From assembly GCF_006094435.1 (NCBI RefSeq), contig NZ_CP034782.1:248001-312000 (forward strand): 64,000 nt of DNA, read 5' to 3'. The DNA comes from Pseudomonas sp. MPC6. Lineage in GTDB: Bacteria > Pseudomonadota > Gammaproteobacteria > Pseudomonadales > Pseudomonadaceae. The position numbers and the translations under genes are program-made. A model generated the notes under the pieces. The model did no database searches. It was not told the origin of the DNA and saw only the letters and a list, made by a program, of their open reading frames with translations. Position 1 is the stretch's first letter. Each line of letters opens with the position of its first letter. Shown one piece after another: positions 15,219-37,341 of this stretch.

Positions 15219-15219
15219 A

Positions 15220-16217: not shown

Positions 16218-16367
16218 GACTTCTCTGACTGCCCAGACAACGAGAGGCTGACCCACTGGTTTGCGCTGAAGCCTGGACAGTTGACTGCCCCATCGATACG
16301 GATCCTGCCTATGCTCCAATCAGGATCCCATCCCGTACCGGGCGACTCGCCTATTAGGGAGAAAAAC

Positions 16368-17555
16368 GTGAACGACAACTTTGACCCGCAACGCCGCCAG
16401 GTGCTGCTAGGCAGCGCTGTCGCGCTCGCCTCGGCCAGCCTGCTCAGCCTTAGCCCGGTTAGTCTTGCAGCCGAGATGCCGCTGCCAGACTACGTCAATT
16501 GGAAAAGCCCCGAGGCGCTGATCGTGCACAGCGCCAACACCGTGGAAACCCGGCGTGACGCCGTCGGCACCAGCATAGTAACGTCCAACGAACAGCTGTT
16601 TATCCGCAACAACCTGCCGCCACCCTCGGCGTCCATTGTCGCCGATCGCGATGCCTGGACGGTCGCCGTCCAGGGCGTGAAGAAGCCGCGCAGCATAACC
16701 CTCGGCGAACTCAAAACCCTGGGTGTCACCACCGTCGCCAGCGTGCTGCAGTGCTCGGGTAACGGTCGGGCATTCTTCGACCACGAAGCCAGTGGCACCC
16801 AGTGGGAAACCGGTGCCGCCGGCTGTGTTTTCTGGAGCGGCGTGCCGCTGAAAACCGTGGTTGAGGCCATGGGCGGAAGCCTTGACGGCCTGTCCTATAT
16901 CACCAGCACCGGCGGCGAAGAACTACCGGCCGGCCTCGATCCGAAGAGCCTGATGGTCGAGCGTTCGGTGCCCCTGCGTGCCCTGGATCAGGCCGTCCTC
17001 GCCTGGGAGCTGAACGGCGAGCCCCTGCCCTTGGCCCATGGTGGTCCGTTGCGCCTGGTAATACCGGGTTACTACGGGGTGAACAACGTAAAATACATCA
17101 AACAGGTGGCCTTCACCGCGGAACAGACCAACGCCACTATCCAGGCCTCGGGCTACCGCATCCGTCCGGTTGGTCAGTCAGGCGCACCGGATCAACCGTC
17201 AATGTGGGAGATGAACGTCAAGTCCTGGATCACCCAGCCGCTCAAGCAGGCCAAGGCCGGGCGGGTGCGCATTCAGGGCGTGGCTTTCGGCGGTGCCCAG
17301 GAAGTGAAGGACGTCGAGGTATCCCTCGATGACGGCAAGAACTGGCAGGCCGCCGCCTTCGTCGGCCCGAGCCTGGGTCCATACGCTTGGCGTCCCTTTG
17401 TTCTATTCGCCGAGCTCAAGCCCGGTAACTACAGCCTGATGAGTCGAGCAACCGACGTCGAGGGCAACGCCCAACCCCAGGAGGGGCTGGCAAATGAACG
17501 TGGCTACGGCCACAACGGCTGGAGGGATCATGGTGTCAGCATTGCAATTGTCTAA
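16368..17555 (+). CDS. sorA: SorA-like molybdopterin sulfite dehydrogenase catalytic subunit
   Basis: The 395-residue protein has a Tat signal peptide (DPQRRQVLLGSAVALASAS), a sulfite-oxidase molybdopterin domain whose Mo-ligand cysteine is in SVLQCSGNGRAFF, and a C-terminal dimerisation domain. The start is a GTG at 16368 with AGGGAG six bases upstream. It oxidises sulfite to sulfate in the periplasm and passes electrons to the overlapping cytochrome c gene. It probably detoxifies sulfite released by the sulfonate pathways encoded on both sides. Confidence 0.93.
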   Translation: MNDNFDPQRRQVLLGSAVALASASLLSLSPVSLAAEMPLPDYVNWKSPEALIVHSANTVETRRDAVGTSIVTSNEQLFIRNNLPPPSASIVADRDAWTVAVQGVKKPRSITLGELKTLGVTTVASVLQCSGNGRAFFDHEASGTQWETGAAGCVFWSGVPLKTVVEAMGGSLDGLSYITSTGGEELPAGLDPKSLMVERSVPLRALDQAVLAWELNGEPLPLAHGGPLRLVIPGYYGVNNVKYIKQVAFTAEQTNATIQASGYRIRPVGQSGAPDQPSMWEMNVKSWITQPLKQAKAGRVRIQGVAFGGAQEVKDVEVSLDDGKNWQAAAFVGPSLGPYAWRPFVLFAELKPGNYSLMSRATDVEGNAQPQEGLANERGYGHNGWRDHGVSIAIV

Positions 17556-17886
17556 GGCCTCGGCACTGGCGCTGAGCCTCGCCCTGAGCGGCCTGCTGGG
17601 CACGGCTCAAGCCAGTGTAGCGGCTACCGATGACGCCCAATATCAGTTGGGCCGCAAGGTGTTCGCCGAGCAGGCGCAACCCTCCTGCACGATCTGTCAC
17701 ACCCTGCAGGACGCCGGCTCCAGTGGCGCCATTGGCCCCAACCTCGATGAACTCAAGCCGACCCCGGAACGGGTCATGGCCGCAGTACGCGGTGGCGTCG
17801 GGGTGATGCCGGCCTTTGCTGAATTGCTCAGCGTCGAGCAAATAGAGGCCGTAGCCCACTACGTGTCCCAGGTGACCAAGCAATAA
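17530..17886 (+). CDS. sorB: SorB-like c-type cytochrome subunit of sulfite dehydrogenase
   Basis: The 118-residue protein has a signal peptide and one haem site, SCTICHTLQDAG, with the distal Met in GVGVMPAFAELL. The ATG at 17530 has GGAGG directly upstream and overlaps the sorA end by 26 bases. It accepts electrons from SorA. A perfect terminator hairpin follows. Confidence 0.93.
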   Translation: MVSALQLSKASALALSLALSGLLGTAQASVAATDDAQYQLGRKVFAEQAQPSCTICHTLQDAGSSGAIGPNLDELKPTPERVMAAVRGGVGVMPAFAELLSVEQIEAVAHYVSQVTKQ

Positions 17887-21109: not shown

Positions 21110-22150
21110 TCAACGCGCCAGGAACAACCATACGCCCACCAGCACTGCCAGAAATACCGTATTGGCAATCATCAGTACCATCGGGCGCCACCCCATTTCC
21201 GCCAGTTCCTTGAATGAAGCTTTCATACCCAGCCCCACCATGGCAACTACCAGACACCAGCGCGAGAGTTCGATCATGGCATTGCTGATCGATGACGGCA
21301 GGTATCCGCTGCTATTAAGCAGTACAACAATGACGAAGGCGACCAGAAAGCCGGGCAAGGGAAAACCGGACTTGCCGCCCTTGCTACCGGCGTCCGAATT
21401 CCGACGTGCAACGATGACTGAGATCATCACCACTACCGGAACCAGCATTGCCACCCGCAGCAGCTTCGTAAAGGTAGCAACGTCCCCTACGTTGTCTGAG
21501 ACCATGTAGCCTGCACCGACAACCTGCGCGACGTCATGAATAGTCGCACCCAGAAAAATACCAATTTCCGTATCACTGAAACCAAAATAGCTGACGATCA
21601 GGGGATAAAGAATCATCGCCGTGGTGCTCAGAGCCGTTACCGAGATCACCGTGAAAATGAGGTTTTTTTCCGCGTCTTTGCTCTGGGGCAACACTGAGGC
21701 CACAGCCAAGGCTGCGGACGCACCGCAAATGCCAACAGAGGCGCCCGCCAGCACGCTCTGTGAACGGCCAAGCTTCAACCACTTACCGCACAGGATACCG
21801 AAACCAATGGTCGCTGGTACGGCCACCAGCACAATGGCTATGGGCGTAATACCAAGCCCCAGTAACTGCTCAATGGTAATTCGGGCGCCAAGCAACCCTA
21901 TACCAAAGCGCAGTACCGCCTTGGCCGAAAAGACAATGCCCGCGACACAACGGCCTTCCAACGAAAGGTAGTTCAATGCCATGCCCATCAACACGGCATA
22001 AAGGATGGTTGGACCACCGTAGTGCTCCGATACGAACGTTGCAGCCATACCGACGACAAGGCACAACACAAAACCCGGCAGCAGCTCCGCCACACGCGTA
22101 CGCAACCCGGCGAACCGACAGGAAAAAAAGGACTGATCGACTGAGTTCAT
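21110..22150 (-). CDS. second YeiH/UPF0324 family putative sulfite exporter
   Basis: The 346-residue protein (start ATG 22150, MNSVDQSFFS) has the family motifs ATIHDVAQVVGAGYMV and GASVGICGASAALAVASV and about ten membrane segments. It differs clearly from the copy at 9080-10102, so it is not a recent duplicate. It is the last gene of the run that begins with the succinate-dehydrogenase-like iron-sulfur subunit, 114 bases after the NIPSNAP gene. Its place at the end of that operon suggests the pathway releases sulfite. Confidence 0.85.
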   Translation of the reverse strand: MNSVDQSFFSCRFAGLRTRVAELLPGFVLCLVVGMAATFVSEHYGGPTILYAVLMGMALNYLSLEGRCVAGIVFSAKAVLRFGIGLLGARITIEQLLGLGITPIAIVLVAVPATIGFGILCGKWLKLGRSQSVLAGASVGICGASAALAVASVLPQSKDAEKNLIFTVISVTALSTTAMILYPLIVSYFGFSDTEIGIFLGATIHDVAQVVGAGYMVSDNVGDVATFTKLLRVAMLVPVVVMISVIVARRNSDAGSKGGKSGFPLPGFLVAFVIVVLLNSSGYLPSSISNAMIELSRWCLVVAMVGLGMKASFKELAEMGWRPMVLMIANTVFLAVLVGVWLFLAR

Positions 22151-22264
22151 TCTACTGTCCAGTAGTCTGTGAGAAAGGAACGCCAAGGATAAAGACGCGT
22201 TATTCTTAGAATAAAGAAGACAGCAGGCTCAAAATCGAACCTGCTTTAAAAGGAGTAGAGCTGT

Positions 22265-22591
22265 TTACTTATCGGTGCCGCCGATCGGGCTCCAAGACTC
22301 AGGAATGAGAATCTTGTTTTCAATATTTTGCACTAGCGGGCGCATTTTAAGAGCGTATTCAAGCCACTCCTCACTGGCCTGCAGTTCCTGCCGGCGTCTC
22401 CATCGGTCATCCATCGACTCGTAGCCCCACATATGTACCACTTGATTCAGCGGCCCAATATCGGTATGGAAATAGCCAATCATATTACCCAGAATACGAA
22501 CTTGAACATCCTTGCCCAAGGCCTCATACAACTTAAGAAATTCGCCGAGCTTGCCGTTATGAAGAGTATAAATTCGCTCATCAACAAACAT
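22265..22591 (-). CDS. NIPSNAP family protein
   Basis: The 108-residue protein begins MFVDERIYTLHNGKLGEFL and contains GYFHTDIGPLNQVVHMWGYE, the pattern of NIPSNAP ferredoxin-like proteins. These small dimeric proteins often accompany catabolic genes, but their chemistry is mostly unknown. The ATG at 22591 follows GGAG. It follows the semialdehyde dehydrogenase gene by 235 bases and probably belongs to the same operon. Confidence 0.88.
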   Translation of the reverse strand: MFVDERIYTLHNGKLGEFLKLYEALGKDVQVRILGNMIGYFHTDIGPLNQVVHMWGYESMDDRWRRRQELQASEEWLEYALKMRPLVQNIENKILIPESWSPIGGTDK

Positions 22592-22826
22592 TTTTCATCT
22601 CCAGAAAAAGGCGGGCTCCATTACTAGTCACATGACAAAACACGCACTGCCATGACTCAACAAAACCCCGCTAAAGAAACACCAGAATGAATGATCCTGT
22701 GTTGCAGACCCACGACCTGAAACCTATGACTAACTAATCGAGAGTAAGTTACCGTAAATAAATCATGCAGAAGCGTTCTTACATCATCGATTAACCCAGC
22801 GCATTAATAGCTCGATGAGTACTTCA

Positions 22827-24317
22827 TTACTTCATGGTTGGCATGGAAAACTGCGACTGGCTGCTACTGGCCTGCCAGCGGGAAGTAATCGTCTTCAGCT
22901 TGGTAAAGAAACGTATCCCTTCCATGCCGTGCATATGGTGATCACCGAACAGTGAACCCTTCCAGCCACCGAAACTATGGAATGCCATCGGTACAGGGAT
23001 TGGGACATTGATACCCACCATGCCCGCCTGAACCCTAGCGGCAAATTCGCGAGCAGCATGGCCTTCCTGAGTAAATATGGCGGTGCCATTGCCGTACTCG
23101 TGGCTGTTGATCAATTCCAGCGCCTGCTCAAAGTCATCAACACGGACAACAGCCAGTACAGGACCGAATATTTCCTGCTGATAAATGCGCATGTCAGGCG
23201 TTACGTTGTCGAATAGACAGCCGCCCATAAAGTAGCCTTCGCCATGCTCGGGGTTCTGTAACTGACGCCCGTCCACAACCAGGTCTGCGCCTTCCTTAAT
23301 GCCGCTGTCGACAAAGCTCAACACAGTGTCCAGGTGCTCGCGCGTCACCAGCGGGCCCATCTCGGCGTCCGGGTGAGTACCGGGCAGCACTCTCAGGTCT
23401 TTGAGTCGGTCTTTCAGTGCAGCCACCAGCGGATCAGCAATATCGCCTACGGCAACCGCGACTGAGATGGCCATGCAACGCTCACCTGCAGAGCCATAGG
23501 CAGCCCCCATAAGCGCATTCACGGTGCTGTCCAGGTCGGCATCCGGCATGATAATGGCATGGTTTTTGGCACCGCCCAGGGCCTGTACTCGCTTGCCATG
23601 CTCGATACCGACTTTCTGTACATAGCGTGCAATCGGTGTGGAGCCGACAAAGCTGACAGCGCTGATACCCGGGTGTTGCAGCAGGGTGTCCACCGCCTCC
23701 TTGTCGCCATTGACCACATTGAACACACCCGCCGGCAAGCCCGCCTCTGAGAAGAGTTCCGCAAGGCGCAGCGTGCTGCTCGGGTCTTTCTCCGAGGGCT
23801 TCATAATAAAGGTGTTACCACAGGCGATCGCAATTGGGAACATCCACAGCGGTACCATCACTGGGAAGTTGAATGGCGAAATACCAGCACACACACCCAC
23901 GGGCTGACGCACAGACCAGCTATCGACGCGGGTACCTACGTTTTCGTTAAACTCACCCTTGAGCAGATGCGGAATTCCACAGGCGAACTCAACCACTTCA
24001 ATACCACGGGTGACTTCACCTTTGGCGTCATCCAGCACTTTGCCGTGTTCCTGAGAGATCAGCAGCGCCAGCTCATCGATGTTCTCGTTCAGCAGCTGCA
24101 GAAACTTCATCATTACCCGGGCCCGGCGTACCGGCGGCGTGGCCGCCCAAGCCGGTAACGCATCGGTCGCAGCCTGAACTGCCTCTTCTACTTCCTTTAC
24201 GGTCGCCAGGTTCAGCTGCGCACTCTGGAACCCCGTCGCCGGATTAAATACTGCACGATTGCGCTCACCGCGACCAGTTACTACTTTGCCATTAACATAG
24301 TGCCCTAACTGATTCAT
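22827..24317 (-). CDS. mmsA: (methyl)malonate-semialdehyde dehydrogenase, CoA-acylating
   Basis: The 496-residue protein has the MmsA/IolA signature: [20 protein letters not shown] for cofactor binding and GSAGERCMA with the catalytic cysteine. A C-terminal [12 protein letters not shown] segment is also present. These enzymes turn malonate semialdehyde or methylmalonate semialdehyde with CoA and NAD+ into acetyl-CoA or propionyl-CoA plus CO2. The start codon overlaps the upstream stop by one base (TAATG), so translation is coupled to the hydratase beta subunit. This places semialdehyde formation directly after the hydratase step and is the key to the proposed pathway. Confidence 0.92.
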
Positions 24318-25048
24318 TAGTTATTATCCTTTTGAGTTGGCATCACATTTACGAATTTTATGGGTTGAGTGTCTGGCTCACCGATAACTTCATCGCCACG
24401 ATTAGTAGTTTCACCGTAACGCTTGAGAGCAGGAGGCTTAAGGCCTTCATAGAGCTTTTCGAGCCTGACATTAACCGCACGTTCGTGCTTTACAAAAAGG
24501 CTGTTGCCTTCACGGTCGTTATCCACGATAAAGGGACCGATTTCATCAACTTCAAAAATCCACATCGCCTGTGCAATACCATTTTCTTCCAGCCAGTGCA
24601 CATCTTTAACACGGGTAATACCACGACCGAGCAATGCGCCAGCGCCATAGCCCACGGTTGAGAGATAGCGTGCACCGTTGGGCATAAAGACGTCTCGGTA
24701 AGCCTCTTCCGGCATTCCGCCCTTGCCGATAATGATTTTTGCACCCGAGGTTTCGAACCAGCTTTTCATCCATTTTCCGAAGCGAAAACTGGCAGTCGCT
24801 GTTACAGCCCCCACATCGTAACCACCTTCTTTATTCAGGCTTGCTGCCGGAGAACAATGGAAGTTGACATTGGAAATTGATCGGATATCAACGGGCAGTT
24901 CTTCTCCGCTTTCCAGGACTTTTTTGTAAACGCCTTCCCGGGCGGTATAGATTGTGCCTGTCAGATAGACAATATCGCCCTGCTCCAGGTTATCGACATC
25001 TTCTTGGGATACGGGCACCTGCAATTTTACAACTCTCATATTGCTCAT
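24317..25048 (-). CDS. class I fumarase/tartrate dehydratase-like beta subunit
   Basis: The 243-residue protein matches the C-terminal (beta) domain of class I fumarate hydratases. Landmarks are [16 protein letters not shown], the substrate-side [15 protein letters not shown], and [12 protein letters not shown]. It needs the alpha subunit that precedes it. The ATG at 25048 overlaps the alpha stop codon (TGATG) and follows GGAGG. It carries an extra tail of about 40 residues after the usual end ([18 protein letters not shown] in part). Confidence 0.9.
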
Positions 25049-25986
25049 CAGATACCCTCCCGCCGATAGAAGTCGGTGAACCATTGCGGGTCATCCCTGA
25101 ATTCAACCCGGCCATCGCTATAGATACGCGCAGCGGCGCGGCGGGACGAATGACAGAACGAATGAATGCTCATGGGCATGCCGCCGGTATGGGTGTATGC
25201 CACTTCAACATGGCAGTCGATGACCAGCGTCTTGCCTTCAAACCCCATGGGGCCCATGCCGATGCTGTTGCCGAGGTCCTTGAGCTCTTGCTCCAGCTTG
25301 GCGACATCCGGATCCGGGTTAACATCGCCGACAACGCGCAGGCAGGCGGCCTCCTTGCCGATTCGCATACAGGTGTCTTTGTTGCCACCCAGACCCACGC
25401 CGATGATGGCCGGTTGACAGGCCAGGCCACGGCGGCCAAAAGAGGCCATGGTGTCGAGGAAGAAACGCTTGATGCCGTCAATGCCATCACCCGGGAACAG
25501 CATGCGGTAGTCGGTACCGAACAGGCCGCCCTTGTGTACCGTGATGATATCGATCCAGTCACCGCCGGGCTCAAACGTATACTCGACCTCAGGGGCATGA
25601 ATACCCAAGTTGTTGTTGTTGTCCTTGCGCGTTAATGGATGCACACGGTTCGGACGCAGCGGAATTTCCTGAGTACCGATGACAACCGACTGACGCAAGG
25701 CATTTTCCAGCGCCACAAAGCCGCCCTGCACCATGGCCTCATTCCCTGCCTTGACATAAAACCGCGGCAGGCCAGTATCTGCACACATCGGACGCCGGTC
25801 CTTTTCGGCAACGTCGTAGTTGTCCAGCATGGTCTTGATAACAAAGCAGGAGAGGTTTTCGGTCTCCCTGCTCGCGGCCTGCTGCAGGGCACGCTTGTAG
25901 TCAGGCGGAATATCAATGGCCGCCCGGGACATCAGCTCCGTTGCCGTTTCCAGCACCAGTTGCTGCGGTATGGGATTAAAACTCAT
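25048..25986 (-). CDS. class I fumarase/tartrate dehydratase-like alpha subunit
   Basis: The 312-residue protein carries three cysteines placed as in iron-sulfur hydro-lyases: C68 in MCADTGLP, C206 in GGNKDTCMRIG, and C278 in HSFCHSSRRAAARI. They would hold the 4Fe-4S cluster that activates water. The known reactions are hydration of fumarate or dehydration of tartrate. Here it follows a succinate-dehydrogenase-like flavoprotein with an ATGA overlap and precedes its beta subunit. It therefore probably hydrates the double bond made by that enzyme. The substrate cannot be read from sequence. Confidence 0.9.
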   Translation of the reverse strand: MSFNPIPQQLVLETATELMSRAAIDIPPDYKRALQQAASRETENLSCFVIKTMLDNYDVAEKDRRPMCADTGLPRFYVKAGNEAMVQGGFVALENALRQSVVIGTQEIPLRPNRVHPLTRKDNNNNLGIHAPEVEYTFEPGGDWIDIITVHKGGLFGTDYRMLFPGDGIDGIKRFFLDTMASFGRRGLACQPAIIGVGLGGNKDTCMRIGKEAACLRVVGDVNPDPDVAKLEQELKDLGNSIGMGPMGFEGKTLVIDCHVEVAYTHTGGMPMSIHSFCHSSRRAAARIYSDGRVEFRDDPQWFTDFYRREGI

Positions 25987-27731
25987 GATGCGACTCCAAT
26001 TTTATTGTCGTTTTCTTCTGGTATCAGCGTCTGGCCAGGTTTAACGCGGGTGAATTCAACCGGTATTTCCGTCACGGTAATAGCGTCACCGTCCTGCCGA
26101 ACCCGCACATAGGTTGATGTGTCCAGGTCACCCTTTTCGGGGAAATCATCACGAAAGTGAGCGCCCCTTGAGTTCTTGCGCAGCTGAGCCGACTTGATAA
26201 TCGAGAGGCTGACGCTGATCTGTGAATGCAGGTTCAGCCAGTCATGCCAGGTCTGGTTATAGGCCTTGCCATGATCGGGAATACCCAGACCCATGAGTTC
26301 TTCGCGGATGGCTAATACATCGTCATAGGCCCGCACCAGCCCTACTTCGTTGCGAATAATGCCGGCGTCATCCCACATTTTGTCTAACAGGCGATAACGC
26401 AGATCGGTCAGATCACCCTGGCTCTGGCGAAACGGCGTATCAATGAATTCCAGCGTTTGCGCGATTCGATTTTGGTCAGGTTCAGCGAACTGTCCCTCCC
26501 GTAAGACCCAGTCGGCCATGACATCGCCGGCAATGCCGCCATAGACCGTCGAGTTGGCCACACCGTTACCGCCCAGGCGATTGGCGCCGTGTACACCGCC
26601 GGCATCCTCCCCTGCACAGTAGAGCCCGAGCATCGCGGTTTCGCAGTCTACGTTCACCTCAACGCCGCCCATCATGTAGTGTGCCGTTGGCACCACCTCT
26701 ACCAGGCCGCCTGCGAGATCCGCCCCTACATCCTTGCAACGGCTGACCATGCCCTTGAATTTCTTGCGCACATTGTCGACCCCCAGGTGCGCCATGCTGA
26801 TATGTACGCCACCACTTTTGGTTGTATTGCCCTTGCGCATTTCGCGATAGATCGAACGGGATACCACATCACGGGTGGCGCGCTCGCCACGCTCATCATA
26901 GGAGTGCATGAAGCGCTCTCCCTTGCCGTTGAGCAGGTGGCCGCCCGCGCCGCGCAGGCCCTCCTCCAGCACCGTACCGGTCAAACGCGTGCCTTCGCCG
27001 GCCAGCAATCCGGTGGGGTGGAACTGCACCATTTCCATATCGCGCAGATTGAGACCCGCCCGTAGCGCCATGGCCAGACCATCGCAGGATTTTTCGCCGG
27101 ACGGCGTGTGGTAACGGTACATCGTAGGGCCGCCGCCAGTGCCCAGCATCACGGCCTTGGCCTGAACAAACAGAGGCTTACCGGTGCGGATATTAAGCAT
27201 CAGAATGCCCGATATCCGGCTGCCATCTTCGGACTGGATAATCTCGATGGCCCGGTGATCCTCAAGCCTGTCGATAGGCCGAGACCACACCTGCTCGGCC
27301 AAGCGGTTGATGATTTCGATACCCGTCAGGTCGCCTTTATGAATGGTGCGATCGAACGTCTGGCCCGCAAATGCCTTGCCATGCAAGGAGCCGTCGTCAA
27401 CACGGTCAAAGAAGCATCCAATCTCGTTTTCCAGCTCAAGCACTCGCTTGGGCGCGGTTTCTACCAGTTTCCAGGCCAGTTCCTGATTGGGAATCCAGTA
27501 GCCGCCATGGATGGTATCCATAAAGTGACGTTCGACAGAGTCACCATCATTCAAGGCAACGTTGTATCCCCCCTGCACCATTCGGGTACAGCCACACTTT
27601 CCCAGCAACCCTTTAACGGCCACGGTAATCTTGAGGTCCGGATTGCTTTTATGGGCATGAAGCGCTGCGAATAAACCGGCGCCACCAGAGCCGAGAATCA
27701 GAATATCGGTTTGTTTAGTTTCAATAGTCAT
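25983..27731 (-). CDS. succinate dehydrogenase/fumarate reductase-like flavoprotein subunit
   Basis: The 582-residue protein has the FAD site GSGGAGLFAAL and the substrate-site residues of the family: His in VQFHPTG, Arg in TRDVVSRS, His in PTAHYMMGG, and Arg in HGANRLGGNG. Two positions differ from true succinate dehydrogenase. The His that binds FAD covalently is replaced by Cys (GKCGCTRMVQGGY, C48). The Thr-Glu pair of the carboxylate pocket reads Glu-Glu (TVLEEGLRG), with a short insertion before it. The ATG at 27731 follows GGGAG. It is coupled to the hydratase gene. A modified dicarboxylate-like substrate is likely. Confidence 0.9.
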   Translation of the reverse strand: MTIETKQTDILILGSGGAGLFAALHAHKSNPDLKITVAVKGLLGKCGCTRMVQGGYNVALNDGDSVERHFMDTIHGGYWIPNQELAWKLVETAPKRVLELENEIGCFFDRVDDGSLHGKAFAGQTFDRTIHKGDLTGIEIINRLAEQVWSRPIDRLEDHRAIEIIQSEDGSRISGILMLNIRTGKPLFVQAKAVMLGTGGGPTMYRYHTPSGEKSCDGLAMALRAGLNLRDMEMVQFHPTGLLAGEGTRLTGTVLEEGLRGAGGHLLNGKGERFMHSYDERGERATRDVVSRSIYREMRKGNTTKSGGVHISMAHLGVDNVRKKFKGMVSRCKDVGADLAGGLVEVVPTAHYMMGGVEVNVDCETAMLGLYCAGEDAGGVHGANRLGGNGVANSTVYGGIAGDVMADWVLREGQFAEPDQNRIAQTLEFIDTPFRQSQGDLTDLRYRLLDKMWDDAGIIRNEVGLVRAYDDVLAIREELMGLGIPDHGKAYNQTWHDWLNLHSQISVSLSIIKSAQLRKNSRGAHFRDDFPEKGDLDTSTYVRVRQDGDAITVTEIPVEFTRVKPGQTLIPEENDNKIGVAS

Positions 27732-27770
27732 ACCGTCTCCCATGCATCCTCAAAGGACACAATAAGCTGT

Positions 27771-28109
27771 TTAAAATGCCCTAAGAAGAAACAAGCAACC
27801 GGTCGCCGCAGCGCCGGTCGCGGCGACGGAAATCAAATACCCCTGCCACTCTTTCCAGGCAAAAAACTCGATAACTAGCAGGCGCACACCGCCTAAAAGG
27901 TGAACCGCGAGCAAACCCACTAAACCGGCTTCGGCAAACTTGATCAGCGGGGCATCAGCCCAATAGAGGAAACCGTCCAGCACATGGCTTCCCTGGAGAA
28001 CTAGACTTAACACCAGAAAGTGAAACGGTAGGAAAAGCGCAAGGGCAACGCCCGACCAACGCTGGACAAACGAGGCCCAGTATTCTTTTTTATCGCGGTT
28101 GGTTTTCAC
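27771..28109 (-). CDS. succinate dehydrogenase-like membrane anchor, SdhD type
   Basis: The 112-residue protein has three hydrophobic segments and WASFVQRWSGVALALFLPFHF, the start of an anchor subunit with a possible haem or quinone-site His. The start is a GTG at 28109 overlapping the SdhC-like stop codon, with GGAGGG upstream. With the other anchor it would pass electrons from the flavoprotein to quinone. Confidence 0.85.
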   Translation of the reverse strand: MKTNRDKKEYWASFVQRWSGVALALFLPFHFLVLSLVLQGSHVLDGFLYWADAPLIKFAEAGLVGLLAVHLLGGVRLLVIEFFAWKEWQGYLISVAATGAAATGCLFLLRAF

Positions 28110-28444
28110 AACACCAGCCCTCCTATTGCAGAGATACCTGTCACGCAGAGCATCAGGAAGAACACAGTCAGAACGCGGTTTACAATCGCTCCTCTCCACC
28201 CCAATACTTCAAATGCGACAGTACGCAGTCCAATGGAAGAGTGAACAGCAGCTGCAATCGTGAATACCGAGTAGAAAACTCCCATGACATAATTTTCGCT
28301 GGTGCGCTGCAAAATTTCAGCCGAAGACAACCCACCCTGAATCGCGATAATCATCCCAACGATATGTATCACCACAAACAATCCCAGTAACATGGCGCTA
28401 ACACGATGCAAGAGCCACAACTTGAACTCGATTCGAGTGCTCAT
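28106..28444 (-). CDS. succinate dehydrogenase-like membrane anchor, SdhC type
   Basis: The 112-residue protein has three membrane segments with LWLLHRVSAMLLGLFVVIHI at its start, a common pattern in two-anchor quinone-reducing complexes. The start overlaps the iron-sulfur subunit stop as ATGA. A full set of anchors means the oxidation is linked to the respiratory chain. Confidence 0.88.
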   Translation of the reverse strand: MSTRIEFKLWLLHRVSAMLLGLFVVIHIVGMIIAIQGGLSSAEILQRTSENYVMGVFYSVFTIAAAVHSSIGLRTVAFEVLGWRGAIVNRVLTVFFLMLCVTGISAIGGLVL

Positions 28445-29166
28445 ATGTCCCCCTTCAGCGTTGCAAAGGCTACCGCCCTTTTAAGGCCGGCAATGGAACG
28501 TGTAGGATTCAGTTCCAATGGGCAGCGGGCCATACACTGGGAGTTGGTATGGCAGTTCTGACAGCCGCCATCACCGCTCACTGCTTTCAGGCGCTCTGGG
28601 TTCGCGAAGTCTTTGGCATCATTGATCAGTGACCAGGCACGTTGGAGTGCCGCAGGGCCCAGGTAGGCGGGGTTAGACGCCACCACATCACAGGCGGCGT
28701 AGCAGATGCCACAATTAATACATTCGATGGCCTCGTCGACTTTCGCGCGCTGCTTGTCTTGCGGCTTGATTGGCGCGAACTCCTGCACCGCCGATTCTGC
28801 CGGCTCAAATCGGCCTTTGGCTTGCTGCCACTTGTCAAAGAATGGTTCCATATCAACCACCAAATCTTTGACAACCGGCAAGTTAGCCAGCGGCTCAAGC
28901 CTCAATGCATCATTCTCTACGACGTTGCGTACCAAGGTGCGGCAGGTCCAGCGAGGCTTGCCGTTAACCTGCATTGCACAGGAACCACACATACCGACCC
29001 TGCAGGCAAATCGATACGACAGGGAACTATCAACCGATCGCTGAATATGGGTCAAAAGATCAAGAATTGTTTGCTCCTCAACAAAAGGAACCTGGAACTC
29101 TTCAAAACCACCTTCCTCTTTTCCTCGCCAGACTGATACGGTTATTTTTTTGTGATTATGTTCCAT
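28441..29166 (-). CDS. succinate dehydrogenase/fumarate reductase-like iron-sulfur subunit
   Basis: The 241-residue protein has the 2Fe-2S motif CRVGMCGSCAMQVNGKPRWTC and, further on, CINCGICYAAC and CQNCHTNSQCMARCP for the other two clusters. It carries electrons from the flavoprotein to the anchors. It is the first gene of the operon; the ATG at 29166 follows GAGG. The order B-C-D-A and coupling to a fumarase-like pair differ from the housekeeping sdhCDAB operon of pseudomonads. This is therefore a second, specialised complex. Confidence 0.92.
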   Translation of the reverse strand: MEHNHKKITVSVWRGKEEGGFEEFQVPFVEEQTILDLLTHIQRSVDSSLSYRFACRVGMCGSCAMQVNGKPRWTCRTLVRNVVENDALRLEPLANLPVVKDLVVDMEPFFDKWQQAKGRFEPAESAVQEFAPIKPQDKQRAKVDEAIECINCGICYAACDVVASNPAYLGPAALQRAWSLINDAKDFANPERLKAVSGDGGCQNCHTNSQCMARCPLELNPTRSIAGLKRAVAFATLKGDI

Positions 29167-29296
29167 ATTTTTTGCGCCTCACCGGAAGTACATGACTGCA
29201 GAATTACTGGCTACCGTTTCATACAGTCGATCTTATAACCGCAGATCTACTTATGCCATCCATATAAATTTAATAACAGCTTAAGGATTTATTAAT

Positions 29297-29930
29297 ATGA
29301 TGGTCGAGCAACGCCGTCCCTTTCCTGCTGAACTCATTTGCGAGGCTGCCGATCGCGTGCTCAAGCAATACAGTTACATAGAAGCCAGCCGTTCACTCGG
29401 CATTGGCAAGTCGGCACTCCGCCGCTGGGCCAGCCAGGCTCAGCAGGAGCGCGAAGGTCTCACTCCGCAGAGCAAAGCACTGACACCGGAACAGCAAAAA
29501 TCCAGGAGCTGGAAGCCCGGATCATCAGCCTCGGACGGGAGAGATCGATACTAAAAGGCTACCGCGCTCTGATGTCGGAAGATCACGAAAATACGTGCTG
29601 ATCATTCAGCTTAGCGTCCATGATCCGGTTGATTGACAGTGCAATGTGATTGAAATCAACCGCTCAAGCTACTACGCCCACCGCCTCAGGTGCCGGACTC
29701 CTGATGTCGAACGGCTTCAGTTGTGCAGCCGGGTGAGTGAGCTGTTCTCGCAAAGCGCAGTGCTGCAGGTAGCCGCACATCCTGTTGATGATGGGTAAAG
29801 ACGGTAAATGAGCAACTGGGTCGGTTCAAGGTGCGCAGCTTGATGCGTGCGCTTGAACTCATAAACAAGCAGCCGGGGTCGCTTGCCTACAAACAAGCGT
29901 AAGCGATCCATGAACACCGTCTTCCAATAA
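29297..29930 (+). mobile_element. IS3-family element remnant (orfA and orfB pieces)
   Basis: An orfA-like frame starts at 29297 (MMVEQRRPFPAELICEAADR, then SRSLGIGKSALRRWASQ) and shifts frame near 29500 into IQELEARIISLGRERSILK. Pieces of orfB follow (INRSSYYAHRLR, TPDVERLQLCSRVSELF) with stops and large gaps. The element is dead. It separates the catabolic operon from the porin. Confidence 0.75.
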
Positions 29931-29944
29931 ATGGGGTTGATGCT

Positions 29945-30210: not shown

Positions 30211-30369
30211 CCGCCTGGCTCAAGGACACGTTGGAAAAGCTTCCCGCCTGGCCAACAACGAATCGATGAGCTATTGCCCCTCAGCGCCGAAACCTGAGTA
30301 AAGGTGCCGGCCGGACGTACGATCAACTGCGCGGCTGCGCTCGGGCTCCACAGGGCGGAACCATAAAAG

Positions 30370-30511: not shown

Positions 30512-31765
30512 TCAGAGCAGCGGCAGGGTGTAGCTGGCGATCAGACGGTTTTCGTCGATATCGTTGGTGAAGTTCGAACGCACCATGGCATTGCGCCAGC
30601 GCACGCTGAAGTTCTTCAGGGTGCCTTCCTGGAACACGTACATCAACTCGGTGTCGCGCTCCCACTCCTTGCCGTCGCCGGCAGCGTCCAGATCGACGTT
30701 ATCACCGCTCAGGTAGCGGGTCATGAAGGTCAGCCCAGGGATACCGATGCCAGCGAAGTTGTAGTCGTAACGCACCTGCCAGGACGTCTCGTCCTTGTTG
30801 GCGAAATCGCTGATCTGCACATAGTTGACGAGGAACGGGTCGGTGCCGTTGAGATAGGCGAAGCCGGTGTCGCCGCTCATATTCTGGTAGCCGATGCCGA
30901 ATTTGTGCACGCCCAGGCCATAGGTGAGCATCGCGCCCAGCGCCTTGTTGTCGACGTTGCTGTGGCCGTCCCCGGTGGAATGCGCATAGCGCAAATCAGT
31001 CTTCAGGCTCTGCCCTTCGCCCAGCGGCAGCACATGCACCAGGTTGAAGGAGTTCTGCGTATACAGATCCTCCAGGTTGGAGTGGTAGTAGGCCGTGCTC
31101 AGCTCCTTGTTGAGCTGGTAGGTGCCGCCGAGGAACCGGAAGGAATCGGTCAGGATACCATCGGTGAAGGTGAAGTCGCGCCGGCTACCGGCGGTCATAG
31201 ACAGGTCTTCGAAATCGCCAGAATTGCGGTTGTTGACCTCGCGCACATAGCCGCCATCGAGGGTCAGGCCGTCGATTTCCTGGGAAAGCAGTTGGCCGCC
31301 CTTGAATACCTGCGGTGTCAGGCGGCTGTCGCTGGAGGAAATGGCCATGTTCTTGAACTGCATGCTGCCGACGCGTAGGGTGGTCTTGGACAGCTTGGCC
31401 TTGGCGGCCACCGCCAGGTCGGAGGAGTAATCCTGGGAGCCGCCCGAGCGGTCGGGCACCAGCAGACCACTGCCGGCGGTGCCCCCTCCTGAGTCCAGCT
31501 TGAAGCCGAGCATGCCGATGGCATCGATGCCGAAGCCCGCCGTACCCTCGGTATAGCCGGAGTTCATGCGCAGAATGAAACCTTGCGCCCATTCTTCCTG
31601 TTTGGCCTGGCTGGCGGCGGCCTGACGGAAATCACGATTGAAATAGAAGTTGCGCGCTTCGATGCTGGCCTTGCTGTCCTTGATGAATTCGGCGTTGGCG
31701 ACTTGGCTCAGGGACATGCCCAGAGTGACGGCGACTACGGCCAGCGCCAGGGAGGTCTTTCTCAT
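30512..31765 (-). CDS. OprD-family outer-membrane porin
   Basis: The 417-residue protein has a signal peptide (MRKTSLALAVVAVTLGMSLS to about residue 24) and the OprD start EFIKDSKASIEARNFYFNRDF. Repeated beta-strand pairs follow, ending in a typical terminal strand (RLIASYTLPLL). OprD porins admit small carboxylates and amino acids. The ATG at 31765 follows GGAG. It lies downstream of the Tct importer and TauE genes on the same strand, so it likely admits the same substrate across the outer membrane. Confidence 0.93.
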   Translation of the reverse strand: MRKTSLALAVVAVTLGMSLSQVANAEFIKDSKASIEARNFYFNRDFRQAAASQAKQEEWAQGFILRMNSGYTEGTAGFGIDAIGMLGFKLDSGGGTAGSGLLVPDRSGGSQDYSSDLAVAAKAKLSKTTLRVGSMQFKNMAISSSDSRLTPQVFKGGQLLSQEIDGLTLDGGYVREVNNRNSGDFEDLSMTAGSRRDFTFTDGILTDSFRFLGGTYQLNKELSTAYYHSNLEDLYTQNSFNLVHVLPLGEGQSLKTDLRYAHSTGDGHSNVDNKALGAMLTYGLGVHKFGIGYQNMSGDTGFAYLNGTDPFLVNYVQISDFANKDETSWQVRYDYNFAGIGIPGLTFMTRYLSGDNVDLDAAGDGKEWERDTELMYVFQEGTLKNFSVRWRNAMVRSNFTNDIDENRLIASYTLPLL

Positions 31766-32136
31766 TATGATTTTCTCCAGTATTTTTATGGGTGGCTCAT
31801 CGACACGGGCGCACACTTAGACCACGAAGAGGCAGGCACGCGCCGAATTCGTGGGCTCACTCTTGCCCGGTTCGGCGTCCGGATAGGCCGGCGGCATGCG
31901 AGGTGAACCGAAAATCTGGGGTACATGGCAACTTGATCGAAGCACCGGGACACCCTGGCGAACAGCAGGAAGATAGTCTTGCTCAGCACAATTTCCGCAT
32001 CTTCGAACCAGTACTCATCGCTGAGCAGTAATCGGGGTATCGCAAGCTCGGATCGGTATCGGGGCGGAGATTCAACGGCTTACTTTTATAAAAAATCACT
32101 TCGCGCGAAACGGGAGAAGTTCCAAAAGCCATTTCA
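31766..32136. other. intergenic region before the porin gene
   Basis: This 371-base stretch has no gene I can support. It probably holds a separate porin promoter on the minus strand. Confidence 0.45.
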
Positions 32137-32904
32137 CTAAAATAGCAAAGGGCGAGCAGCCAAAAAGACTCCAAACAGCAACAGGAAGATCCAAATGATC
32201 TTTTGAAACATATCGGCATCAAGCCGATGGGTCAGCAGATGACCAAGTATCGTAGATAGAAATGCCAACGGCAAGAAAAGTAAATAGAGGCCAATCAAAC
32301 GAGGTGTAATCAAGCCAGAAGACAAATAACTTATAGGAATTACAACGCCACTTAGAATATAGAACCCGCTAATGGTACCTTTGAACTGATCCTGACTCCA
32401 ACCTCTGAGTCCACCATAAATACTGAAAACGACACCACGGAGGGCGTAAGCAGACCCAAGCATGCCTGCAAGACCTCCGAACAGATAACTCCAGCCATCT
32501 GACTTTAACTGTAATTGCGATTTAGGCCCTAAACGCCACAAAGCCATGGCAACGAGCAAAACGCCAAGTAAGCTCTTGACCACAACTTCATTGCCTAAAC
32601 TCAACAGCATGACACCAAGAGGGATACCAACTAAGGCTGCGACGGATGTACGTTTTAGCGAACTAAGCTGCAGTGATCGCCGCCCCTGCCAAAGCGCATT
32701 AACCGAAATAGTTGTGGAGAGACAAATAATCAAAGGCACAGCTTCACGTATATCAATGAACATTGCCAGCAGAGGAACCGCCAGCAAACCATCACCAAAG
32801 CCGATCGCCGCGCGCAGCAATAATGAAAAAAAAAGTATCAAACCGATGCAACTTAGGTTATCCGACGCCATTGCCAGGCTAAGTGATGACGAGATGTATT
32901 CCAT
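32137..32904 (-). CDS. second TauE/SafE family exporter
   Basis: The 255-residue protein has about eight membrane segments with the repeated family motif (RAAIGFGDGLLAVPLLAMF and later FGGLAGMLGSAYALRG). TauE/SafE proteins export sulfite or sulfonates. It follows the TctA gene by 100 bases on the same strand, so it appears to be part of the import operon. A sulfite exporter in the same unit as a tricarboxylate-type importer suggests that the imported compound carries a sulfonate group. Confidence 0.85.
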   Translation of the reverse strand: MEYISSSLSLAMASDNLSCIGLILFFSLLLRAAIGFGDGLLAVPLLAMFIDIREAVPLIICLSTTISVNALWQGRRSLQLSSLKRTSVAALVGIPLGVMLLSLGNEVVVKSLLGVLLVAMALWRLGPKSQLQLKSDGWSYLFGGLAGMLGSAYALRGVVFSIYGGLRGWSQDQFKGTISGFYILSGVVIPISYLSSGLITPRLIGLYLLFLPLAFLSTILGHLLTHRLDADMFQKIIWIFLLLFGVFLAARPLLF

Positions 32905-33004: not shown

Positions 33005-34522
33005 TCACTGTTTCACTGTTTCACTGTTGGCATTAATGGCCGTGGGCTTGGCAGCAAGGCTATTCTTGATCAGGAAGAACAGCGTAAGCGCGGTGAGCGT
33101 CCAGAACACCCAAGTAATCACACTACGAAACAGTATTGAAAAATCGCCATTGGACATCAACATCGACTGCCGAAAGTTGTCCTCAAGCAAAGGGCCCAAT
33201 ATAAAAGCGATCAGAAAAGGAGCAGCAGGCACGTCCAGCCGCATCATGAGGTAGCCGAGCAAGCCTAAGACAAACATGACCAAAATATCAAACATTGAAT
33301 TGTTAACAGCATATGTCCCAAAAACGCAAAGCACCAATACCGCTGGCATGAGTATCGATTTAGGAATATCTGCAACAAATCCAAAGATACGTATGGAGAA
33401 GCCGCCAATAAAGAACAGGAAAAAAGAGCTCAAAATCAAGCCCATAAACAACGCATAAACGAGAGTGCCATTGGTCTCAAAAAGCATGGGCCCGGGTTGA
33501 ATTCCGTGAATCATGAAAGCACCGATAATGATGGCGGTGATCACATCCCCAGGAATACCCAATGCTAGCAATGGAATCAGGGTAGAGCCACAAACCCCAT
33601 TGTTACCTGATTCAGCTGCGGCAACGCCCTCAAGCTCGCCTTTACCAAAATTATCTTTATTGGGGGATTTCCGTTTCGCCTCACTGTACGAAAGAAATGC
33701 AGCAGGTGCGGCACCTATGCCCGGAATGGCTCCGAGTATGGCACCGATGATGCCGCCCCGAAAAATCGTTCGAAAGCAACGTTTATACTCTTGAAGAGTA
33801 ATGCTATTACAACCCAGCTCCCGAACCTTTCCATGGGCGTCGGATGGGTTCATGGCAAAGGCGATAATTTCCGGCAGCGCGAACAATCCGATCAGGACAG
33901 CGATGAAATTGAACCCGCCCATCAGGTTTACATTGCCCATGATAAATCGATCTGTGCCGTAAACCAGATCCAAACCGACAGTAGCAAGCAGTAACCCCAA
34001 GGCAGCAGAGACCATACCTTTCATCAACCGGTCACCGGATATTCCAGCGATAATCATCAGCGAGAACACCATCAGTGTGAAAAACTCCGGTGGCCCGAAG
34101 CTCATTGCAAAGGAAGCTAGCCAACCAGCAAATAGAATCAGCGCTAGGTTCGATATTATATCCGCCGTACAGGATGCATATAACGCCATGCTCAAAGCTT
34201 TACCCGCCTGCCCCTTTTCAGCCAGAGGATATCCATCCAGCACGGTCGCACTGGAAGCCGGCGTACCGGGAGTCTTGATCAGAATCGCCGGTATGGAACC
34301 ACCAAAAACACCGCCCTTATATACCCCCAGAAGCAACAGAATACCCACTACAGGTTCCAGCGCGAAGGTAAAAGGTAGGGTGAGCGCCACCGCCATAGTG
34401 GCAGACATACCTGGAATAGCCCCGCAAATCACACCAATAGCAACGCCAATCGCAAGTGCAAGGATACTGTCAAACTGAGCAACCAGCGAAAAAGCCCCCA
34501 TCAACGTATCAAGAAAACTCAT
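33005..34522 (-). CDS. tctA: tripartite tricarboxylate transporter large permease, TctA
   Basis: The 505-residue protein shows the TctA motifs GAIPGMSATMAVALTLPFTF and AIPGIGAAPAAFLSYSEAKR with about eleven membrane segments. It starts with an ATGA overlap on tctB. It forms the channel of a TTT importer for di- or tricarboxylate-like anions. Confidence 0.93.
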   Translation of the reverse strand: MSFLDTLMGAFSLVAQFDSILALAIGVAIGVICGAIPGMSATMAVALTLPFTFALEPVVGILLLLGVYKGGVFGGSIPAILIKTPGTPASSATVLDGYPLAEKGQAGKALSMALYASCTADIISNLALILFAGWLASFAMSFGPPEFFTLMVFSLMIIAGISGDRLMKGMVSAALGLLLATVGLDLVYGTDRFIMGNVNLMGGFNFIAVLIGLFALPEIIAFAMNPSDAHGKVRELGCNSITLQEYKRCFRTIFRGGIIGAILGAIPGIGAAPAAFLSYSEAKRKSPNKDNFGKGELEGVAAAESGNNGVCGSTLIPLLALGIPGDVITAIIIGAFMIHGIQPGPMLFETNGTLVYALFMGLILSSFFLFFIGGFSIRIFGFVADIPKSILMPAVLVLCVFGTYAVNNSMFDILVMFVLGLLGYLMMRLDVPAAPFLIAFILGPLLEDNFRQSMLMSNGDFSILFRSVITWVFWTLTALTLFFLIKNSLAAKPTAINANSETVKQ

Positions 34523-35013
34523 GGCAACCTCGCAAATTCACTTTGGGGAATGTCGATGCCCGCAACATGATAGAAAAAGGCATATAGTGCTGCGGGCAAA
34601 AGAATTCCAACAGCTACTGCCGTAAAGCGATATCCAGTCTTGCAGAATGCTATTGATAGTATTATGTATGCAATGCTGGAACCCCAAACCATTCCAAGAT
34701 AAGGTAGCAGCAAATAGTAACCAGATAGAAACACAACAAAAACGGACATTCGAAAAGCGGTTTCACATGAAGTCGTTTCGAAAGAGTTAGCGTGAGGCTC
34801 AGACCTCCTGTTAAGCATTATATTTAACATCATGCATATACCAAGAATCAGCAATACCCATGACACAACCTTAGGCCAGAACGCCGGGTCAAGAACCGCA
34901 ATAGCTATAGATTGGGGCGAAACAACTGCGACAGGTATCAGAAAGAGTATAAACAGAAGGCCAGAGGCAAACACGCCTCCACCGACCACTAGCTCCTTTT
35001 TATTGATGAGCAT
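34519..35013 (-). CDS. tctB: tripartite tricarboxylate transporter small permease, TctB
   Basis: The 164-residue protein has four membrane segments typical of TctB. The frame extends further upstream, but the ATG at 35013 (MLINKKELVVGG) fits the family and has GAGG before it. It pairs with TctA and the binding protein TctC. Confidence 0.88.
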   Translation of the reverse strand: MLINKKELVVGGGVFASGLLFILFLIPVAVVSPQSIAIAVLDPAFWPKVVSWVLLILGICMMLNIMLNRRSEPHANSFETTSCETAFRMSVFVVFLSGYYLLLPYLGMVWGSSIAYIILSIAFCKTGYRFTAVAVGILLPAALYAFFYHVAGIDIPQSEFARLP

Positions 35014-35079
35014 ATCGGCAACCTCATTAATGTATAAAAATATGTACTCTATACTTGGCACACATAATATAACCAACCA

Positions 35080-36090
35080 TTAACTAGCTTCCATACCCAA
35101 CTTATCTACCAAGCTCTTGAAGATAATGTACTGTTTGTTAATGAACTCTTCCGACTCTTTTGCCCCCATATTGACGATAACGGAGCCAAGTTTTTCCATG
35201 CTACCTACGAACTCGGGGTCACGGGTCGCCGCAGCTAGCCATTTTTCCCAGGATTTGACAGCCTCCATATCCATATCTTTGGGTCCAGCGATTCCTGTCC
35301 AACCCAGTAGCGTCTCGAGCTCTGGATGATTCAGCTCAGACGCCGTGGGAGCATCGATTCCGTTGATTCGCTCCTTGGTCGTTACAATAAGCGGGGTCAT
35401 CAGGCCATTATTGATGAAGCCTGCCAGGGTCGATGAATTATCACAGATAAAGGTCGCTGTACCGTTAAGTACCGCCGTGACCGCTTCGCCGCCGCCACGC
35501 ATTGGCAGGTGAATGGCCATTTCCAGCGGTTTTTTTACACCGAAGGCATCCAATATCATGACCGCAGACAACTGAAGAAAAGAGCCGACCCCGGAGGAGC
35601 TATAACTTACTGTTCCTGGGTTGGATTGCACCTTGCTTACCAGCTGTTCCATAGAATCGATCCCACTGTCGCTGTTCGTTGCGCAGACAATTGGGTTTAT
35701 TTCGTACACCCCAACAAATTTGAAGTCTGATAACGCATAGGGAAGGTTACTCTTCATGGCGGGATTTACGGTATGGGAGCCAACACGTGCGGCAAGCACT
35801 GTATAGCCGTCACCCTTCGCGTGAGCAACGCTGGCCGAACCTGTCACTCCGCCTGCACCGGTGCGGTTTACGATCACCAGAGGCTTGGAGACTTCGCCAG
35901 AAAGGGAACGTGCCAAGGCGCGTGCCGAAATATCGGTAGCACCACCTGGTCCATAGGGAATCACTAACGATATTGGGCGCTTTGGATACTCAGCCATAGC
36001 CGGAGCTGAAAGCATGAGCCCTATGCTTAGGCACAGGCCCGCCTTGACTACCTTGTGAATATCCTTAAATGATTTGGTTTTTTTTGTCAT
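35080..36090 (-). CDS. tctC: tripartite tricarboxylate transporter solute-binding protein, TctC (Bug family)
   Basis: The 336-residue protein has a signal peptide ending near APAMA and the Bug-family start YPKRPISLVIPYGPGGATD with the substrate-binding loops. It captures the acid in the periplasm. It is the first gene of the operon, divergent from a LysR regulator, the usual layout for inducible Tct systems. Confidence 0.92.
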   Translation of the reverse strand: MTKKTKSFKDIHKVVKAGLCLSIGLMLSAPAMAEYPKRPISLVIPYGPGGATDISARALARSLSGEVSKPLVIVNRTGAGGVTGSASVAHAKGDGYTVLAARVGSHTVNPAMKSNLPYALSDFKFVGVYEINPIVCATNSDSGIDSMEQLVSKVQSNPGTVSYSSSGVGSFLQLSAVMILDAFGVKKPLEMAIHLPMRGGGEAVTAVLNGTATFICDNSSTLAGFINNGLMTPLIVTTKERINGIDAPTASELNHPELETLLGWTGIAGPKDMDMEAVKSWEKWLAAATRDPEFVGSMEKLGSVIVNMGAKESEEFINKQYIIFKSLVDKLGMEAS

Positions 36091-36453: not shown

Positions 36454-37341
36454 ATGTCAATTCGCCATCTCAAAACGCTCCTTGCCATCGCAGACAAGGG
36501 CTCCTTTGTGGAAGCAGCAGAAGCTGAGTTTCTTACACAGGCTGCAGTCAGCTTGCAAATGAAGGCGCTTGAGGATGAGCTCAACATGCCACTGTTCGAC
36601 CGGACACGCCGCCCGCTAACCCTGAACGAAGCCGGCATAACGATCGTCCCTAAGGCCAGGGAAATCGTCCGGAACTATGAACAACTGATGGAAACTTCGG
36701 CCATCTTTGACAAGCTGTCGGGGCAGCTTGCCCTTGGTTCGGTACCTACCATGTTAACCGGGGTGTTACCAACGGCGCTGGCAAGCCTGCGTCACTCCCT
36801 TCCACAGCTTCATATAACGGTATCCAGCGGGCTGTCCAACTCATTGATCGCACAGGTGGAAAGAGGCGCCATCGATGCCGCCATTATCAGCGAGCCTCCC
36901 ACCGAACGCCCAGGACTTAGCTGGACACCCTTTGGCATAGAACCACTGATCGTTATTGCACCCATTGATTCGCCCAATGTCCCTCCGGAAGTATTGCTGA
37001 AGACTCACCCTTTTATCCGCTTCAACAAGAATGCATGGTGTGGCCAATTAATCGACGAGCATTTGAAAAACCTGGGTATCGTCGTAAACGACGCCATGGA
37101 ACTGAATACGCTGGAAGCTATTTCCACGATGGTATATCACGGTCTTGGCGTCTCAGTTATTCCAGAACGCAATATACAGTACCCAGGCTCGCTGCCTCTA
37201 AAACGCCTCGATTTTACCCGAAAAGCGCCCCACCGGATCCTGGGCCTTATCGAGAAAGAGAACAGCAACAAGTCACATCTGACAAACGAACTAATCACTG
37301 AACTGGCTGAGACAATGCGAAAAAAGAAATGGTTAAAATAA
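36454..37341 (+). CDS. LysR family transcriptional regulator
   Basis: The 295-residue protein starts MSIRHLKTLLAIADKGSFVE with a full LysR helix-turn-helix (EAEFLTQAAVSLQMKALE) and an effector domain. The ATG follows AGGAA. It is divergent from the tctCBA-tauE-oprD operon, so it probably senses the imported acid. No other regulator lies close to the sdh-like operon, so it may control both. Confidence 0.92.
   Translation: MSIRHLKTLLAIADKGSFVEAAEAEFLTQAAVSLQMKALEDELNMPLFDRTRRPLTLNEAGITIVPKAREIVRNYEQLMETSAIFDKLSGQLALGSVPTMLTGVLPTALASLRHSLPQLHITVSSGLSNSLIAQVERGAIDAAIISEPPTERPGLSWTPFGIEPLIVIAPIDSPNVPPEVLLKTHPFIRFNKNAWCGQLIDEHLKNLGIVVNDAMELNTLEAISTMVYHGLGVSVIPERNIQYPGSLPLKRLDFTRKAPHRILGLIEKENSNKSHLTNELITELAETMRKKKWLK

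Follow-up and report, generated by a model that had tools for sequence, protein, structure and literature searches.

Nine minus-strand genes at 21110-29166 of the window, by which we mean the whole 64,000-nucleotide stretch analysed here (Pseudomonas sp. MPC6, contig NZ_CP034782.1, positions 248,001 to 312,000), encode a succinate dehydrogenase-like complex (sdhB-C-D-A-like), the alpha and beta subunits of a fumarase-like enzyme, a (methyl)malonate-semialdehyde dehydrogenase (MMSDH)-type enzyme, a NIPSNAP-family protein and a YeiH-family exporter. Judged from sequence, we give a probability of about one half to the reading that these genes, with a transport block upstream, form an operon for the uptake and breakdown of 3-sulfopropanoate, which would proceed via sulfoacrylate and direct desulfonation to malonate semialdehyde. 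That the substrate is sulfonated is highly probable, that it is 3-sulfopropanoate in particular is likely, and given this substrate direct desulfonation would be the probable course.

In the proposed route, OprD and TctCBA would, by their families, import 3-sulfopropanoate, and the membrane-bound SdhBCDA-like complex would oxidize it to 3-sulfoacrylate, passing electrons to quinone. The class I fumarase-like enzyme would then add water, in this organism most likely at the sulfur-bearing carbon, and the resulting geminal hydroxysulfonate would collapse to malonate semialdehyde and sulfite. Conversion of malonate semialdehyde to acetyl-CoA and CO2 would fall to MMSDH, and export of sulfite to YeiH and TauE, after which the sulfite dehydrogenase SorT/SorU could oxidize it.

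3-Sulfopropanoate is made by bacteria from homotaurine and from sulfoquinovose-derived dihydroxypropanesulfonate. Passages of a 2024 paper describe its production by HpfXYZ, state that bacterial degradation of the compound had not previously been reported, and cite a thesis in which the route runs through sulfoacrylate and sulfolactate (PMC11489063); in a passage of a review from January 2026 the mechanism in Bilophila is described as unclear (PMC12890257). In the literature searched, from which most preprints and subscription journals are missing, nothing on genes for 3-sulfopropanoate degradation was found, and no title or abstract start pointed to a succinate dehydrogenase (SDH)- or fumarase-type enzyme in desulfonation. 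Two other sulfur acids were set aside: the passages found for thiodipropionate (PMC6370202, PMC8102459) mention no SDH or fumarase genes, and for mercaptosuccinate (Advenella) SDH and fumarase terms are absent from PMC5373536. If the proposal is true, the operon supplies genes by which this sulfur-cycle step can be recognized, and a hydratase could join the enzymes that break C-S bonds, with SuyAB-type loci, which pair the common dehydrogenase with another hydratase, as a ready contrast.

Enzyme families and active-site pockets

All nine genes lie at the place and on the strand given by the original prediction. The SdhB-like iron-sulfur subunit (28441..29166) matches TIGR00384 at 192.5 bits (cut-off 88) and PF13085. 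Of the two SdhC/D-like membrane subunits, the first (28106..28444) matches PF01127 at 32 bits (cut-off 25.8) and TIGR02968 at 29 bits, under the cut-off of 41.8, and the second (27771..28106) matches PF01127 at 39 bits and TIGR02970 at 45 bits, under 52.3. The SdhA-like flavoprotein (25983..27743) has the FAD_binding_2 and Succ_DH_flav_C domains (PF00890, PF02910), which with SdhB and the membrane subunits gives the layout of complex II; it stays under the cut-offs of TIGR01812 (421 bits; 567.3) and NF004900 (502; 718). The class I fumarase alpha-like subunit (25048..25986) is recognized by TIGR00722 (230 bits; cut-off 100.65) and PF05681, and the beta-like subunit (24317..25048) by PF05683 at 85 bits, with 113 bits for TIGR00723 (under 145.15). 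The predicted CoA-acylating MMSDH (22827..24317; TIGR01722 695 bits, cut-off 448.5) is one of six proteins above this cut-off in the window's genome. NIPSNAP (22265..22591) scores 99 bits with PF07978, and the exporter (21110..22186), proposed to carry sulfite, 246 bits with PF03601 (cut-off 24.5) and 165 with TIGR00698 (under 232.6).

The seven genes from sdhB to MMSDH are tightly coupled, with overlaps of 4 bp (sdhB/sdhC), 1 bp (sdhC/sdhD), 4 bp (sdhA/fumA), 1 bp (fumA/fumB) and 1 bp (fumB/MMSDH) and a gap of 27 bp between sdhD and sdhA. Coupling is looser for NIPSNAP, which follows after 235 bp, and for YeiH, which follows after 78 bp with a weak hairpin.

The pocket residues set these enzymes apart. 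For SdhA the reference was FrdA, as the genome's own matches (L008, L009; L numbers denote loci) served poorly; the numbering of the fumarase catalytic residues and the roles of residues are those that we take from fumarase and fumarate reductase structures. SdhA E260 and R253 are present in 64/64 family rows, and FrdA and 7d6v have Thr at 260; in complex II the Thr of the TEG motif presumably lies at the substrate carboxylate. In fumarase alpha, position 69, next to the first cluster cysteine, is Ala in 79 and Gly in 9 of 88 rows (Gln in 7xky), and a Leu-Phe insert (L155-F156) occurs in all 88, while A86, E38 and Y41 of the beta subunit are found in 84/84. A86 replaces the second Thr of the TT..R motif. 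None of these fumarase changes occurs in eight control fumarases, whose alpha subunits have Gln (7/8) or His (1/8) at 69, and whose beta subunits have Thr against A86 (7/7), Asp against E38 (7/7) and His (6/7) or Leu (1/7) at position 41. The cluster cysteines C68, C190 and C278 are kept, as are D70, R111 and beta R37, T85, R89 and K109. By these residues the enzymes are a distinct family with remodelled pockets. Residues presumed to be catalytic stay and a few others have changed across the family. These changes suggest substrates other than succinate and fumarate, and the smaller pocket residues would be compatible with a bulkier group.

Relatives, exporters and neighbouring genes

The fumarase alpha family is rare in the genus and the class: among 298 genomes searched in the genus, the source's own is the 1 that has it (E up to 1e-60), and in the class 7 of 370 do, own genome included (E up to 1e-90). 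A plasmid search returned 53 records, 11 at 64-69% identity, 29 at no more than 36.5%, and 13 more that are all below 60%. From a search of genome contigs, the best 80 of 530 confirmed matches were taken as relatives, and among these Amphritea and Oceanimonas are 91-93% identical and the others 65-73%. SdhB, SdhC, SdhD, SdhA and FumB all lie within 6 kb of FumA in 49 of the 65 relatives with enough flank, and one or more are missing near FumA in 16 (tblastn). Since so many relatives hold the whole set, the grouping is not chance. A tree built from SdhA plus FumA of 65 loci clusters the window with the Amphritea and Oceanimonas loci (L018-L020) and places the loci bearing an exporter or MMSDH in three clades.

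The original prediction named recurrence of the gene order with sulfite exporters as a check; the order is kept in Amphritea, and YeiH and TauE exceed the background. Amphritea L018 reads LysR, TctCBA, TauE, SdhBCDA, FumAB, MMSDH, NIPSNAP, YeiH, the same as the window except that OprD is absent and a single small gene separates TauE from SdhB. NIPSNAP and YeiH keep their positions in both Amphritea loci (L018, L019), and in Oceanimonas (L020) NIPSNAP is retained and YeiH is absent from the locus. NIPSNAP is 89-91% identical in these three loci and 69-72% in L012 and L013. The background was estimated from whole-genome copy counts for the 38 loci longer than 20 kb among the best 80 relatives (YeiH 21 copies, TauE 304, MMSDH 60). 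YeiH occurs in 4 of the 38 loci against 0.084 expected by chance, TauE in 10 against 1.35, and MMSDH in 11 against 0.249; as the loci are related and not independent, counting three lineages only gives Poisson P values of 9e-5 for YeiH and 0.002 for MMSDH. A set of 43 loci of 19 kb or more, which includes the window's own and those from plasmids, has 14 with both an exporter and MMSDH, 5 with an exporter only and 1 with MMSDH only. In a quick MMSDH tree with long outgroup branches, the window clade joins Telmatospirillum and the Burkholderiales copies fall among own-genome paralogues; because these copies place apart, MMSDH was probably recruited at least twice.

The nine-gene span drawn originally proved too short at its upstream end, where it left out the TctCBA-TauE-OprD block and a LysR gene (30512-37341). 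On the minus strand are an OprD-family porin (30512..31816; PF03573 480 bits), a TauE/SafE-family exporter (32137..32904; PF01925 83 bits, cut-off 32.6) and the tripartite tricarboxylate transporter proteins TctA (33005..34522; PF01970 484 bits), TctB (34519..35076; PF07331 42 bits) and the binding protein TctC (35080..36090; PF03401 122 bits). Divergent from TctC, on the plus strand, is a LysR-family regulator (36454..37341) whose best LysR-type model reaches 118.5 bits, all such models staying under their cut-offs. TctA is 69-86% identical in L014, L016, L018-L020, L084 and L095, and LysR 77-81% in L018-L020; no OprD was seen in the Amphritea or Oceanimonas loci. OprD and sdhB are separated by the remnant of an IS3-type orfA and by an IS66-like tail, both recognized by eye (29200-30400), with a 13-pair hairpin downstream of OprD (30400-30370). 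Because these lie in between, transcription of the enzyme genes may start from a separate promoter. Predicted sites are at shuffle level (promoter-like 14 against 14.2 in shuffled sequence, terminator-like 21 against 18.8).

The same SdhA family occurs with other hydratases. A plasmid search with SdhA gave 17 records, among them three of Methylobacterium in which SdhA is 65% identical and the partner fumarase only 36% identical to the window's; the fumarase checked (L156) has ordinary pocket residues. These three also carry a thiamine diphosphate (TPP) enzyme, TauE and two UxaA-family genes; in L164 the two products are 105 and 426 aa long and have the SAF and GD_AH domains of SuyA and SuyB. 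Two haloarchaeal records have SdhA (46-47%) and SdhB, with TauE, SuyA/SuyB-like genes and a gene resembling argininosuccinate lyase close by, and one adds a sulfolactate-dehydrogenase-like gene (340 bits, under 500). The lyase-like genes are annotated argH (L171 6371-7873, L172 6215-7717), and that of L171 matches XcbC of coenzyme M synthesis at 257 bits (under 575) and so may act on sulfoacrylate. E260 is kept in all six proteins compared (three Methylobacterium, two haloarchaeal and Rhodococcus RHA1), and R253 in four, with Lys in the two haloarchaea. SuyAB cleaves 3-sulfolactate, which would make hydration of sulfoacrylate the preceding step. These loci point to sulfoacrylate as the product of the dehydrogenase and 3-sulfopropanoate as its substrate.

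Further sulfur genes lie in the window, which is part of a 328 kb contig in a genome of 7.22 Mb. SorT/SorU (16281..17886, plus strand; NF052247 666 bits, cut-off 570; NF052248 120 bits, cut-off 100), 3 kb past the end of the operon, is a likely sink for exported sulfite. A cysteate-type block (2492-12189) comprises an aspartate-racemase-like gene (by eye), a TRAP transporter, a DegT aminotransferase, a HisD-like gene, a second YeiH and CuyA (562 bits; cut-off 450), with a LysR-like gene (by eye) in divergent orientation. Six PF03601 (YeiH) genes are present in the genome: besides the operon's own, one stands beside CuyA, one beside Xsc and TauE, and two beside a TauD-like gene (by eye). Because of these neighbours YeiH is a fair sulfite marker in this genome. 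Two own-genome loci (L117 3297-8700, L118 4403-8914) contain similar sets, recognized by eye, in which YeiH and an MFS permease accompany a TauD-like dioxygenase and a BKACE-like protein of 350 aa, perhaps another sulfonate pathway. An MqsRA-type toxin-antitoxin pair at 14817-15516 was named from similarity to annotated plasmid genes.

Individual relatives vary the theme. The Telmatospirillum row (L084) has SSADH, YeiH, SdhBCDA, FumAB, MMSDH, LysR, a TPP enzyme, TctCBA, TauE and an amidohydrolase. NT-25 (L012) carries YeiH, NIPSNAP, TauE and TRAP genes, together with a sulfolactaldehyde-reductase-like gene (324 bits, under 348) and SSADH (691, above 646), and the Methylobacterium nodulans cluster (L015) SorA (680 bits; cut-off 600), YeiH, TauE and an MMSDH fragment. 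SSADH could, in the few loci that have it, serve in making 3-sulfopropanoate. An amidohydrolase gene recurs in L011, L015, L017, L065, L068, L074, L084, L088, L090 and L093, often right after FumB, and is accompanied in many of these ten loci by a TPP enzyme. A CuyA-like gene stands between SdhB and SdhC in L051 (6517-7515) and L052 (6532-7530), at 341 and 352 bits (under 450), and similar genes occur in L034 and L078. SsuA/NMT1-like binding proteins are encoded nearby in L013, L021, L044, L054, L062 and L089; the two scanned with NCBIfam gave 100 and 73 bits for TIGR01728, under 163.5.

Substrate and route

The claim of a sulfonated substrate, with 3-sulfopropanoate as best fit, gains support from the exporters and sulfite dehydrogenases, from SSADH and from the SuyAB-like neighbours. 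Several observations weigh against the reading as a whole. Neither an exporter nor MMSDH is carried by 23 of the 43 long loci, and a tree-aware test found only four independent pairs, too few for significance (two to three agree, none opposes). SSADH is present in few loci, the additional Glu (E260) would be unexpected close to a sulfonate, and the names SuyA and SuyB rest on domains and size, NCBIfam having given no SuyB match. In L081, sdhB is immediately preceded by SuyAB-like genes; the locus also has a HisD-like gene and gave no MMSDH match. Genomes of 11 of 12 relatives bearing an exporter or MMSDH encode a PF04295 protein (open frame 388-479 aa); in five of these 11 that were checked the ORFs are 383-392 aa and receive no SuyB name in NCBIfam. 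NIPSNAP, and the amidohydrolase and TPP enzyme of the relatives, are without an assigned role, and the earlier statement that every gene has a job was too strong, as NIPSNAP has none.

The best-surviving alternative, which we consider unlikely, keeps the substrate and the dehydrogenase and places water at C2, giving 3-sulfolactate that would be passed to SuyAB, or by way of sulfopyruvate and cysteate to CuyA, which the window encodes. It is the route given for Roseovarius nubinhibens in the thesis cited in the passages of PMC11489063, and it draws on the PF04295 proteins of the relatives and on the SuyAB-like genes found with the same SdhA family in Methylobacterium, haloarchaea and L081. The last locus, which also has an omega-aminotransferase (608 bits; cut-off 500), speaks for a sulfolactate route in that case or for a single operon that combines two sulfonate modules. 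Against this, SuyB-like genes occur in 1 of 87 window-type loci and in 5 of 6 loci with another hydratase (all but RHA1), a contrast that comes from few lineages with differing flanks. No split SuyB (PF04295, about 390 aa) was found in the window's genome, where the two PF04295 proteins, of 515 and 517 aa, are both fused, and the L018 genome gave no PF04295 match; MMSDH would moreover be left without a role. Direct desulfonation fits the window better, because a dedicated MMSDH is present and no split SuyB was found. The originally proposed last step, to malonate semialdehyde and sulfite, is thus favoured here, but L081 and the relatives' SuyB-like genes argue the other way.

Rather improbable is another sulfur-containing or sulfonated acid, or a substrate that differs between branches of the family. 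The transporters do vary (tripartite tricarboxylate, TRAP, SsuA-like and branched-chain-type ABC, DctA-type) and extra enzymes differ by locus, but the near-invariant pocket signature argues for one substrate or class. A little less probable again is a non-sulfonated acid, for instance 3-nitropropanoate or a branched dicarboxylate, with the exporters there by coincidence. The 23 loci with neither partner would suit it, as would the promiscuity of class I fumarases reported in PMC4682846; the excess of YeiH and TauE, SorA within a cluster and the SuyAB-like neighbours of this SdhA family speak against it. Sulfosuccinate, which would be oxidized to sulfofumarate, hydrated and collapse to oxaloacetate and sulfite, would accord with TctCBA, a dicarboxylate symporter in M. 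nodulans and small clusters whose loci lack MMSDH (L014, L016, L095), but is very improbable given the MMSDH, SSADH and SuyAB-like context and a pocket that has lost conserved residues and not only gained new ones.

Comparison with known systems

With complex II the SdhBCDA-like enzyme shares the four-subunit layout, the FAD and iron-sulfur domains and the active-site His and Arg positions; it differs in having E260 instead of the Thr of FrdA and mycobacterial SdhA, in an insert ahead of E260 that includes R253, and in its scores under the SDH cut-offs. The hydratase likewise has the three cluster cysteines and several active-site residues of heterodimeric class I fumarase and tartrate dehydratase, and departs from them in A/G69, the Leu-Phe insert, A86, E38 and Y41, where the controls have Gln (one His), no insert, Thr, Asp and mostly His.

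Tentatively, and at somewhat less than even odds, we suggest an organosulfonate counterpart of two citric acid cycle steps, in which one dehydrogenase family leads to sulfoacrylate in bacteria and haloarchaea, where three kinds of hydratase take over, and in which the window's iron-sulfur hydratase cleaves the C-S bond by hydration. Such cleavage would be distinct from the known desulfonation routes, by Xsc, SuyAB, CuyA, oxygenases and glycyl-radical enzymes. The sulfolactate route with SuyAB has the SdhA family in common with the window, through its loci in Methylobacterium and haloarchaea, whereas the window's genome is without SuyAB by PF04295 and has the altered hydratase and MMSDH instead. 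Desulfonation by CuyA and Xsc, both encoded in this genome, shares the YeiH and TauE partners and differs in its chemistry, which depends on pyridoxal phosphate or TPP, where hydration is proposed here. DmdD, the methylthioacryloyl-CoA hydratase, also adds water to an acrylate that carries a sulfur group, which is then lost, but it belongs to the crotonase family, acts on a CoA ester and releases a thiol, where the window's enzyme would release sulfite.

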